Shown in pieces: positions 31,350-35,938 of a DNA stretch of 36,494 nt (positions are counted from its first letter, which is position 1; each line of letters starts with the position of its first letter). The stretch is from Paracoccaceae bacterium. Lineage in GTDB: Bacteria; Pseudomonadota; Alphaproteobacteria; Rhodobacterales; Rhodobacteraceae. The translations under genes were made by a program, and so were the position numbers. The stretch is from NCBI GenBank assembly GCA_009920775.1, contig RFZI01000007.1, positions 1 to 36,494 on the forward strand, read 5' to 3'. The notes beneath the pieces were generated by a model. The model worked only from the letters and a program-made list of their open reading frames with translations. It was not told the DNA's origin and did not search any database.

Positions 31350-32588
31350 ATGCAGAAATCAGCGCCGCTTTTCACTCCGGTTCTCATCGTCGGTTCGATC
31401 ATCGTGATGACCGGCTTTGCAATCCGCGCGTCGTTTGGGGTTTTCCAGATCCCGATCGCCGAGGAATTCGGCTGGCTCCGCGCCGATTTCTCGCTCGCCA
31501 TTGCGATCCAGAACCTCTTCTGGGGCATCGGCCAGCCGATTTTCGGCGCTATTGCCGAGAAGATCGGGGATCGTAAGGCGATCATCCTCGGGGCGCTGTT
31601 CTATGCGGCGGGCCTGTTGCTGTCCGCGGGCGCGACCACACCCTTGGCCCACCAGTTCTACGAAACCCTCGTCGGATTTGGCGTCGCCGGCACGGGCTTT
31701 GGCGTTGTCCTCGCGGTCGTTGGCCGCGCCAGTTCGGCCGAGAACCGGTCGATGAGCCTTGCCATCGCGACGGCCGCTGGCTCGGCCGGCCAGATGATCG
31801 GCGCTCCGGTGGCCGAGATCCTACTGGGCTATATGACCTGGCAGATGGTCTTCGTGACCTTTGCCGCCGCGATCCTTGCCGTGCTTCTTCTCCTGCCGCT
31901 CATGCGGGCGCCGCAAATGGCGTCGAAGGCCGAGCTTGAGGAAACGATGGGCCAGATCCTTGTGCGGGCGTTCAAGGATCCCTCCTATTCGATGATCTTC
32001 CTCGGCTTCTTTTCCTGCGGCTATCAGCTGGCCTTCGTGACCGCCCATTTCCCCGCCTTCGTCACCGAAATGTGCAGCCCGATTGGCGAAGCGGGCATTC
32101 TGTCGAGCCTCGGCATCACCACGACCTCGGCCCTGGGCGCGGTATCCATATCGCTTATCGGTTTCGCCAATATCGCCGGAACCATTGCCGCCGGTTGGGC
32201 CGGCAAGCGGTTTACCAAGAAATACCTCCTCGCGGGCATCTATCTGGGCCGCACGCTTGTGGCTGCATGGTTCATCCTGACGCCGATGACGCCGACGACC
32301 GTGATCCTTTTCTCGCTTCTCATGGGATCGCTCTGGCTTGCCACCGTGCCGCTCACCAGTGGCCTTGTCGCCCATATCTATGGCCTGCGCTATATGGGGA
32401 CGCTCTACGGCATCGTCTTCTTCAGCCACCAGCTTGGCAGCTTCCTTGGCGTCTGGCTGGGCGGCAAGCTCTACGACATCTACGGCACCTACACCTATGT
32501 CTGGTGGGTCGGTGTCGGCGTTGGCCTCTTCTCGGCGATCATCCACCTCCCGATCCGCGAGAAGAGGGCGGAGCTGGCGGCGGCCTGA
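31350..32588 (+). CDS. MFS transporter
   Basis: 412 aa, about 12 hydrophobic segments; GQPIFGAIAEKIGDRKAIILGALFYAAGLLLSA; AGGAGG RBS upstream. Confidence 0.92.
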   Translation: MQKSAPLFTPVLIVGSIIVMTGFAIRASFGVFQIPIAEEFGWLRADFSLAIAIQNLFWGIGQPIFGAIAEKIGDRKAIILGALFYAAGLLLSAGATTPLAHQFYETLVGFGVAGTGFGVVLAVVGRASSAENRSMSLAIATAAGSAGQMIGAPVAEILLGYMTWQMVFVTFAAAILAVLLLLPLMRAPQMASKAELEETMGQILVRAFKDPSYSMIFLGFFSCGYQLAFVTAHFPAFVTEMCSPIGEAGILSSLGITTTSALGAVSISLIGFANIAGTIAAGWAGKRFTKKYLLAGIYLGRTLVAAWFILTPMTPTTVILFSLLMGSLWLATVPLTSGLVAHIYGLRYMGTLYGIVFFSHQLGSFLGVWLGGKLYDIYGTYTYVWWVGVGVGLFSAIIHLPIREKRAELAAA

Positions 32589-32590
32589 TC

Positions 32591-33415
32591 TCAGGCGGCT
32601 TTCGTTTCCTTCACGAAGGCTTCGAACGCTGCGACCACCTCATCCGAGTGGGTATAGGGCATGCCGTGGCCTGCGTCCTCGACGACAACGATATGAGCAT
32701 CCTTGTTCCACTCCTTGAGGACTTCCATCATCTCAAGCGGCACAACATCGTCCAACGCGGCCCAGATGCCCAGCACCGGGATGCCAGCGGCATAGATCGT
32801 CTCGTGTTCTGGCCTATAGTTGTGGCGAAACGTATCGCGAGTCATAGCCGACGACACGGCATACCGAAATCCGCGCCTGTCGAGTTGGTCGAGTTGAATC
32901 TGGTGAATTCCCGGCACGTCGATCTTCTCGCCCATACTGGATTCAATGCCGATCTGCAAAATCTGCGAGCCGCGAACAGCATAGATCAAATTCGCCAGAA
33001 GTGGGACTTGAATCACAAATCTCGTCCACAGAGAGAACTTTTTTACCAATTGGAACCCGGCAGGAGCGAGCAGGACTAAATGGGAAACCCGATCAGGGTG
33101 GCGTTTTGCATAGGTCGGCGCGATGAAGCCGCCCATCCGGCCATAGATATCGTAGATCAGCACGCGATAGCCCTTGGCCGCGAGCTTCTGCGCCACGGCG
33201 AGGTAGGCGTCCGAGGGCGTCGTCTGCCCGTGCACGCAGACGACCACAGGCCCGCCCTTTGGCCCGAACCAGCGATAGTGGGTGATGCCTTGTGAAAGTT
33301 TGGCAAGGCTTCCGGGGGCTTTGGAGTGATCGACCGGCTTGCGGAAACGTTCGCGGATGAAAGGGGCGGCGATGATCGCGGCAACGATCAGGATAGCAAT
33401 CGAGAGGTATTCCAT
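32591..33415 (-). CDS. Alpha/beta hydrolase, apparently lacking the nucleophile-elbow serine because of an in-frame internal deletion
   Basis: VVVCVHGQTTPSDAYLAVAQKLAAKGYRVLIYDIYGR joined directly to MGGFIAPTYAKRHPDRVSHLVLLAPAG; C-terminal VVVEDAGHGMPYTH. Confidence 0.85.
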   Translation of the reverse strand: MEYLSIAILIVAAIIAAPFIRERFRKPVDHSKAPGSLAKLSQGITHYRWFGPKGGPVVVCVHGQTTPSDAYLAVAQKLAAKGYRVLIYDIYGRMGGFIAPTYAKRHPDRVSHLVLLAPAGFQLVKKFSLWTRFVIQVPLLANLIYAVRGSQILQIGIESSMGEKIDVPGIHQIQLDQLDRRGFRYAVSSAMTRDTFRHNYRPEHETIYAAGIPVLGIWAALDDVVPLEMMEVLKEWNKDAHIVVVEDAGHGMPYTHSDEVVAAFEAFVKETKAA

Positions 33416-33418
33416 AGG

Positions 33419-34339
33419 TCAGGCGGTCTTTTTCTTCCAGACGTCCATGATATAGCGGCAGGTCATCAGATCAAGGTGCGCACCGCCGCCGTTCTTGAAG
33501 AGCGTGATATCATCGTCCGAGCGGCGGGTGAAATTCTTAAGACCGTAGAAATCCGCAAGCACATGATCCTCGCCGAAAACGCCGTTGGCGATTGGGGTCT
33601 TTAGCTCGCCGATATGGGCGATGGTCGTATGCCGGTTGTCAACGAAGACGCGGGAGCGCAGAAGAGCCGCATCATCCGCCTCGCGCATATCGGGGCGGTA
33701 AGCGCCGATCAGGTCGATGTGCTGGCCGGGGCGGAGCCAGTCGCCGCGGATCAGCGGCTCGGAACTCATCGTGGCCGATGTGACGATATCGGCCACGCGC
33801 ACCGCGGCTTCGAGGTCGGTCGCCACACTTACACCGGGGCAATCCTTGGCGAACTCTTCCGCGCCTTCGGGGCTGCGGTTCCAGACGGAGAACTCGGCCC
33901 CCGGGAAGGCCGCGCCATAGGCCTCGACAAGGCTGCGCCCCACGGTGCCCGCACCCACGATCAGGATCTTGCGGCTATCGGGCCGCGCAAGGCGGCGGGC
34001 GGCGAGAAGGCTGTCGCCGGCGGTTTTCCATTTGGTCACGAGGTGAAAATCAATCACCGCCTCAAGCGCCCCATCCTCGTCGGAGAAAAGGCTTACCGCG
34101 CCCCCGACCATCGGCTTGCCCTTTGCGCGGTTGCCGGGGAATACGGTCGCCGCCTTCACGGCAAGGCCCATGCCGTCGATCCATGCCGAGCGGTTCAGAA
34201 GCGTATCCTTGCCGCGATAGAGGAATACATCCTCGACCTTGGCGGGCGAGCGTGTGTGGCCCGCAGCCAGTGCGTCGGTCAGGGCAAGCCAATCGAGGCC
34301 CTTCTCGCCTTCCGCAAAGGGGATCACGTCAAAACTCAT
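33419..34339 (-). CDS. Ornithine cyclodeaminase / mu-crystallin family protein
   Basis: KAATVFPGNRAKGKPMVGGAVSLFSDEDG; ILIVGAGTVGRSLVEAY; DIVTSATMSSEPLIRGDWLRPGQHIDLIGAYRPDMREAD. Confidence 0.92.
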   Translation of the reverse strand: MSFDVIPFAEGEKGLDWLALTDALAAGHTRSPAKVEDVFLYRGKDTLLNRSAWIDGMGLAVKAATVFPGNRAKGKPMVGGAVSLFSDEDGALEAVIDFHLVTKWKTAGDSLLAARRLARPDSRKILIVGAGTVGRSLVEAYGAAFPGAEFSVWNRSPEGAEEFAKDCPGVSVATDLEAAVRVADIVTSATMSSEPLIRGDWLRPGQHIDLIGAYRPDMREADDAALLRSRVFVDNRHTTIAHIGELKTPIANGVFGEDHVLADFYGLKNFTRRSDDDITLFKNGGGAHLDLMTCRYIMDVWKKKTA

Positions 34340-34956
34340 AGCGCCTCGCTTTCATTCAACAGGCCTTCCGAAACCAGCCGCACGGCCCAGCCCGAAGGCC
34401 CATCGAAAAGGTGTGTCTGCCAACCGCGGCGGGCGGCGGCTGCGATATTCTCGGCCCGATCATCCGCAAAGAGAAGCCCCGCCGGATCAAGCCCGCAATC
34501 GGCCTCGAGCATCGCATAGATTTCAGGGCTTGGCTTGGTCACGCCCATCTCGCCCGACAGATAGAGCCGGTCGAAATCGCCAAGGAAGGGATAGGCGCTG
34601 AGGCCCGTGTCATATGCCTTGCGGCTGATGTTGCTCAGGGCAAAGACGGGAACGCCCCGCTTGCGCAGCGCCCCGAGAAGCCGCGCGGAATGGTCAATCG
34701 CGGGGCTCGCCATATCGAGCCAGTTGTCGTGCCACATCCGGATCTCGGGGGCGAACTCCGGCAGCGCCTCGGCTGCGGCATAGATCGTTTCGCGGAAGGG
34801 GCTGCCGCTGTCGATCTTTTCGTTCACGCCATGTAGATCGACCGCCGCGAACATCGCTTCGCGCCGCGCCCGCCCGATTGCGCGATCGTAAAATCGTTCC
34901 GGCTGCCACTCGATGAGGACGTTTCCGATGTCGAATATAACGGCGTCGATAGGCAT
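34336..34956 (-). CDS. HAD-family hydrolase (HAD-IA)
   Basis: MPIDAVIFDIGNVLIEWQPERFYD; VFALSNISRKAYD; GVTKPSPEIYAMLE; LLFADDRAENIAAAARRGW. Confidence 0.92.
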   Translation of the reverse strand: MPIDAVIFDIGNVLIEWQPERFYDRAIGRARREAMFAAVDLHGVNEKIDSGSPFRETIYAAAEALPEFAPEIRMWHDNWLDMASPAIDHSARLLGALRKRGVPVFALSNISRKAYDTGLSAYPFLGDFDRLYLSGEMGVTKPSPEIYAMLEADCGLDPAGLLFADDRAENIAAAARRGWQTHLFDGPSGWAVRLVSEGLLNESEAL

Positions 34957-34969
34957 TCTTCGTCTCGTC

Positions 34970-35938
34970 TCAGCGGCGACCACGCGGCCCTATGCGGATG
35001 CCGCCCCGGCGCGCCACGGCTTCCCGAAGGATCAAATAGAGTCCCGAGGCGAGGATCAAGGCGATACCTGTCAGCGCCACCGCATCGGGCCATTCGCCGA
35101 AAACGACAATGCCCCAGATGACCGCGAGCGGCAGGGCGAGATATTCAAACGGCGCGACCAGTGCCGCCTCGGCCACGCGGTAGGCATGGCTGATGAAATA
35201 GCCGCCCAGCGAGATAACGGCGCCGGTCACGATCAGGAGCGCCCAGTCGCCCGCATCCGGCATGACCCAAGCTCGCAGAAGGAAATCGAGGATCGCGCCA
35301 TCATCCGAGGCATAGCGCCCGTCGCCCAGCACAAGGCCCGCAGTGGAGGCGACGATGATGAAGGCAACCTGAATGTAAAAGCTCATGGTCGCGGCGCTTT
35401 CGGTGCGGCCGATATAGCGCGTCATCATGTGCATCGCCGCGTAGCCCACGGCCGAGGCGATGGGGAAAAGCGCGGCGAGCCGGAAGGTCTCGGCGCCGGG
35501 GCGCAGCATGATCGTCACGCCGACAAGGCCGATCACCACCGCGAGCCAGCGGTGCGGTCCGACGTGTTCGCGCAGGAAGATCACCGAAAAGACGGTGATG
35601 ACGATGGGCGCGACGAAGAAAAGCGCCACGCCCTCGGCGAGCGGCAGGACCGAGAGGCCAAGGAAGAAAGTGATGTTGGAGAAAACAACGAAACTCGCCC
35701 GCAGCATATGCAGCCAGAAACGGTTGGTCCGCGCTGCCGCGAGGCCGCCGCTAAAGGGGAAGATCACGACGAAGAGCACGGCCATAGCCACGACCGAGCG
35801 GATCAGGATCACCTCGTGCAGCGGATAGCCGCCGCTGAGGAACTTGATCGCCATGTCGTTGACCGAAAAGAACAAGACCGCGAGAAGCGCGCTTGCTGCC
35901 CCGATGATGGAAGGATGGTCTTTGAACTGGGCCAACAT
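34970..35938 (-). CDS. EamA/DMT-superfamily transporter
   Basis: 322 aa; two repeats of hydrophobic segments; EVILIRSVVAMAVLFVVI; PFEYLALPLAVIWGIVVFGEWPDAVALTGIALILASGLYLILRE. Confidence 0.92.
   Translation of the reverse strand: MLAQFKDHPSIIGAASALLAVLFFSVNDMAIKFLSGGYPLHEVILIRSVVAMAVLFVVIFPFSGGLAAARTNRFWLHMLRASFVVFSNITFFLGLSVLPLAEGVALFFVAPIVITVFSVIFLREHVGPHRWLAVVIGLVGVTIMLRPGAETFRLAALFPIASAVGYAAMHMMTRYIGRTESAATMSFYIQVAFIIVASTAGLVLGDGRYASDDGAILDFLLRAWVMPDAGDWALLIVTGAVISLGGYFISHAYRVAEAALVAPFEYLALPLAVIWGIVVFGEWPDAVALTGIALILASGLYLILREAVARRGGIRIGPRGRR

Follow-up and report, generated by a model that had tools for sequence, protein, structure and literature searches.

In the present study, the alpha/beta-hydrolase gene at 32591-33415 of the window (the whole stretch of 36,494 nucleotides that was analysed) is best explained by a recent allele import, imprecisely joined, that inactivated what had been a normal, membrane-anchored alpha/beta-fold serine hydrolase. 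We give this reading a probability of about one half. The features concerned are the following:

32591-33415, minus strand: alpha/beta-hydrolase gene remnant of 274 aa, from the open reading frame and its translation, Pfam Abhydrolase_1, and orthologs of 310-312 aa.
33138-33415, minus strand: resident 5' part of the hydrolase gene, residues 1-93 (anchor helix, oxyanion-hole VHGQ, strand beta-4 YDIYGR), from DNA identity to the nearest relative (G001) and synonymous and nonsynonymous differences (pS, pN).
33137-33138, minus strand: joint, where 114 bp (38 codons, GYSS...MGYS) are absent relative to all orthologs, from protein and DNA alignments.
32660-33136, minus strand: divergent mosaic, imported-looking segment of about 0.48 kb, residues about 94-252, from DNA identity, codon counts and G+C.
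33419-34339, minus strand: putative ornithine-cyclodeaminase-like gene upstream of the hydrolase (named by an earlier, sequence-only reading of this DNA), from the list of open reading frames and homologs on the relatives' contigs.

The gene lies on contig C276 of a draft genome (G000) of 319 contigs and 82.6% completeness. Its start follows the stop of the ornithine-cyclodeaminase-like gene by 3 nt, and the three relatives in which the hydrolase is present have the same gene order. Along 32591-34983 of the minus strand, a HAD-like hydrolase gene, the ornithine-cyclodeaminase-like gene (both names putative) and the alpha/beta-hydrolase gene are tightly packed on one strand, with a 4-nt overlap and the 3-nt gap. 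They probably form an operon, of which the broken gene would be the last member. Its translation is a single open frame with no stop (...RVLIYDIYGRMGGFIAPTYAKRHPDRVSHLVLLAPAG...), in which YDIYGR runs straight into MGGFIAP. The protein has an N-terminal hydrophobic (membrane-anchor) helix, residues 2-23 being helical in the AlphaFold2 model. The match to the PF00561 Abhydrolase_1 profile is significant (E=9.7e-15, 55.3 bits, cut-off 25.8), and PF12146 and PF12697 are matched as well. The best Abhydrolase_1 match spans residues 94-254 only, after the joint, whereas the intact orthologs are matched end to end (56-293). Like other PF00561 proteins, the window protein has the VHGQ oxyanion-hole region, the YDxYGR beta-4 motif and the C-terminal Asp and His regions; unlike them, it is devoid of the Ser, strand beta-5 and helix B.

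The hydrolase is present at the same locus, beside the same upstream gene, in three of the four congeners, with proteins of 310-312 aa. These Marivivens-clade MAG loci (L034 and L036, titled Marivivens sp. in the public records, and L035, titled uncultured Rhodobacteraceae) have 38 more codons exactly at the joint in the protein alignment, the nucleophile elbow GYSMGG included. The extra stretch of L034 is GYSSNGKGPQTRDFLVRQLEDLLEDQGVTGKFAIMGYS; the 38 residues absent from the window protein finish in GYS, which is followed by MGG. At the DNA level, the 114-bp gap is the sole indel relative to G001 across 13.7 kb. The remainder of the G000 draft (319 contigs, 82.6% complete) yielded no second gene copy and no trace of the missing piece. 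The sequence-only reading had proposed that YDIYGR is fused in frame to the C-terminal part with the nucleophile segment gone, and this was borne out by the translation and the ortholog alignment; the acid/His region is also kept, as it had stated, since the DDV (DDVVP) and AGHG (DAGHG) regions align with the orthologs. Among further family members, YDxxGRG followed by a normally spaced elbow was found in all 28 loci checked (GYSMGG in 27, GHSMGG in 1), and the elbow serine is hence kept in all 31 homologs examined. Since the elbow is present in every relative checked, the loss of the serine is private to this one genome or its assembly. The same reading had counted orthologs with GYSMGG as evidence against a real loss; every ortholog does carry it, and this shows only that the loss is private. 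The fourth congener (G004) was set aside as a case of gene loss, because its contig (L068, G004:C343) stops at the hydrolase position, 55 bp beyond the ornithine-cyclodeaminase-like gene on its downstream side, and is uninformative. A DNA search of the G004 draft gave only a trivial match to the neighbouring MFS transporter stretch.

The C-terminal side of the joint, from 33136 down to about 32660, is divergent and imported-looking, which the sequence-only reading had missed. In the alignment with G001, covering 13.7 kb in 150-bp blocks, mean identity is 94% and falls below 86% only in four blocks, at about 32573-33136: the distal-edge block has 80% and the other three, which are successive, have 65, 67 and 68%. 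Over the patch as a whole, DNA identity to G001 is about 66%, against 94% in the flanks and 93% in the resident 5' part. The G+C content of the patch is 54.8%, that of the resident part and the neighbours 61.5-63.2%. Synonymous difference from G001 rises from a pS of 0.17 in residues 1-93 to 0.77, 0.68 and 0.65 in the next three blocks, and is 0.34 in the last 27 codons. Close to the distal edge of the patch, at about 32637-32659, 23 bp in a row are identical to G001. Because of this local jump in divergence and pS, with lower G+C, inside flanks of 94% identity, the divergent stretch is best read, from sequence comparison, as having replaced its homologous counterpart, the source lying outside the four sampled genomes. 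The whole C-terminal part has 62-69% protein identity to members of the genus and at most 42% to other sampled family members. A search of 397 family genomes for the donor found nothing above 42% identity outside the genus, and a plasmid search gave matches of 21-28% only; the donor probably belongs to the same clade but is not among its sampled members. Within the gene, the region of the patch is likewise where G001 and G002 differ most. In these two intact orthologs (L036:3394-3855 against L034), pN is about 0.26-0.29 in two blocks of the C-terminal two thirds and 0.09 in the N-terminal third; as it is far more variable between congeners, the cap/C-terminal part may be a site of recurrent allele exchange.

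Both parts of the gene were under purifying selection before the event. In the resident 5' part, pN is 0.043 and pS 0.17, and the pN/pS of 0.25 compares with 0.26 between intact relatives. In the second block after the joint (SMGEK...DTF, 38 codons), synonymous sites differ by 0.68 and nonsynonymous sites by 0.023. By these counts, the patch evolved as a constrained protein under purifying selection for nearly all its history. Since both parts carry this signature, the serine was lost recently, if it was lost at all. Rapid decay of an inactivated gene was rejected as the source of the divergence: the near-saturation of synonymous sites is local, the amino-acid sequence of one block has hardly changed, and identity in the flanks is 94%.

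Judged by fold position, the missing stretch holds the nucleophile together with helix B and strand beta-5; the ortholog model has a helix at 105-118 and a strand at 125-130. Where the orthologs have the elbow G-x-S-x-G after beta-5 as GYSMGG, the window protein has YGRMGG. The AlphaFold2 runs were made at equal alignment depth with the same four sequences; the alignments are shallow and the models themselves unreliable, and it is the contrast between them that is informative. From such a shallow alignment, the intact ortholog reached a mean pLDDT of 60.5 (80-94 in the majority of core blocks), and its model had 1486 PDB matches at E<=0.001, of which the top ones were alpha/beta hydrolases with TM 0.5-0.6. 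The window protein, at the same shallow depth, reached a mean pLDDT of 46.0; its 8 PDB matches were weak, belonged to mixed folds and had a TM of about 0.3, and its model has neither a complete core sheet nor a confident hydrolase fold. Structure prediction, which had been suggested earlier as a check, supported the hydrolase fold for the intact ortholog and not for the window protein, whose elbow is without Ser. With the catalytic Ser gone together with helix B and strand beta-5, the window protein is expected to have no hydrolase activity and is probably unfolded.

Among the solved structures closest to the intact family are 4ns4, a cold-active esterase, and 6i8w, a membrane phospholipase A. 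With 6i8w and similar N-anchored alpha/beta hydrolases, the intact family shares a hydrophobic N-terminal helix followed by the hydrolase domain; 6i8w matches the family in sequence (E=4.4e-13) and ranks second among the fold matches of the intact ortholog, but identity is about 21% and the window copy is without the nucleophile. Non-catalytic proteins of the alpha/beta-hydrolase fold, such as the NDRG family and the neuroligins, have no working catalytic triad, and known pseudo-hydrolases keep the whole fold. Could the window protein be a working pseudoenzyme of this kind, a membrane-anchored binding or scaffold protein minus its nucleophile? The open frame, the retained Asp and His regions and the low pN/pS on either side of the joint would agree with this, but the low pN/pS dates from before the event, a core strand is lost besides the Ser, and the confidence of the predicted fold collapses. 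In addition, the loss is found in one genome only, and the conserved triad loss that marks a pseudo-hydrolase is not seen among the relatives (3/3 orthologs and 28/28 further homologs keep the serine). The NDRG family and the neuroligins have a complete fold and are conserved across species, in contrast to a protein seen once with a core strand missing. NDRG3 has the alpha/beta-hydrolase fold (PMC7022630). We regard a working pseudoenzyme as highly improbable. More far-fetched still would be a trimmed alpha/beta hydrolase, with YDIYGR-MGG replacing beta-5 and the elbow (Arg for Ser), as a membrane-anchored non-catalytic binding protein made by recombination in one step.

On the coding strand at the joint, the window reads TATGGCCG-G-ATGGGCGGC and G001 reads TATGGCCGC-GGCTATTCG...GGCTATTCG-ATGGGCGGC; no clear microhomology was seen in this comparison of the window with G001 DNA. 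The sequence-only reading had proposed an in-frame deletion. The 38 codons are indeed missing in frame, but a plain deletion fits less well: because the missing 114 bp coincide with the boundary of the patch, a recombination (or chimeric-assembly) junction explains the gap better. Slippage between the GGCTATTCG direct repeats that flank the missing stretch in the orthologs was rejected, as it would delete 105 bp and leave one GYS, whereas 114 bp were lost and both GYS copies are gone. Two unrelated events, a divergent allele first and a simple 114-bp deletion later, would leave the same dead gene. The import boundary may fall at any point of the missing 114 bp, which would leave room for a separate later deletion, and the direct repeat could favour rearrangement; but the slippage it predicts is not what is observed, and two rare events would have to coincide, so that we consider this sequence of events unlikely.

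The import reading is favoured because one imprecise end of a replacement accounts for patch and gap in a single event. DNA from a diverged version of the gene would have replaced the resident 3' half. The distal exchange would have been clean, at about 32660 within conserved sequence, and the proximal one imprecise, joining resident codon 93 to donor MGG with loss of the 38 intervening codons, as in homology-facilitated illegitimate recombination; that the frame stayed open past the joint would be a one-in-three accident. Such events, in which one end is joined by homology and the other illegitimately, have been described (PMC3240628). Their products resemble the proposed event, with the difference that here no clear microhomology was seen and the donor search gave no source. 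Against the import stand the lack of a donor among the sampled genomes, the absence of clear microhomology and the fragmented source draft (319 contigs, 82.6% complete).

The last point also bears on the main rival, an assembly artefact, in which a chimeric contig or collapsed strain variants stitched co-occurring alleles together and dropped 114 bp. The locus is strain-variable, with G002 strongly unlike G001 and G003 in the same region, and the G004 contig breaks at this very place. On the other hand, the patch flanks share one backbone, the frame is undamaged, no further indel occurs in 13.7 kb and, as far as the relatives allow judging, the joint offers a k-mer assembler no long exact overlap. 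We hold such an artefact to be a serious possibility, less probable than the import.

Overall, because the gene lacks 38 codons at the edge of the patch, the catalytic serine among them, the protein is probably dead, or the joint is an assembly error. Of the three options offered by the sequence-only reading, the artefact and the dead enzyme still lead, and the non-catalytic binding protein is without support. The hydrolase case points to no new kind of protein. It is a tidy example of gene breakage where a recombination patch ends, and also a warning, as the open frame and the 55-bit Abhydrolase_1 score would earn it annotation as an active hydrolase despite the lost catalytic serine.
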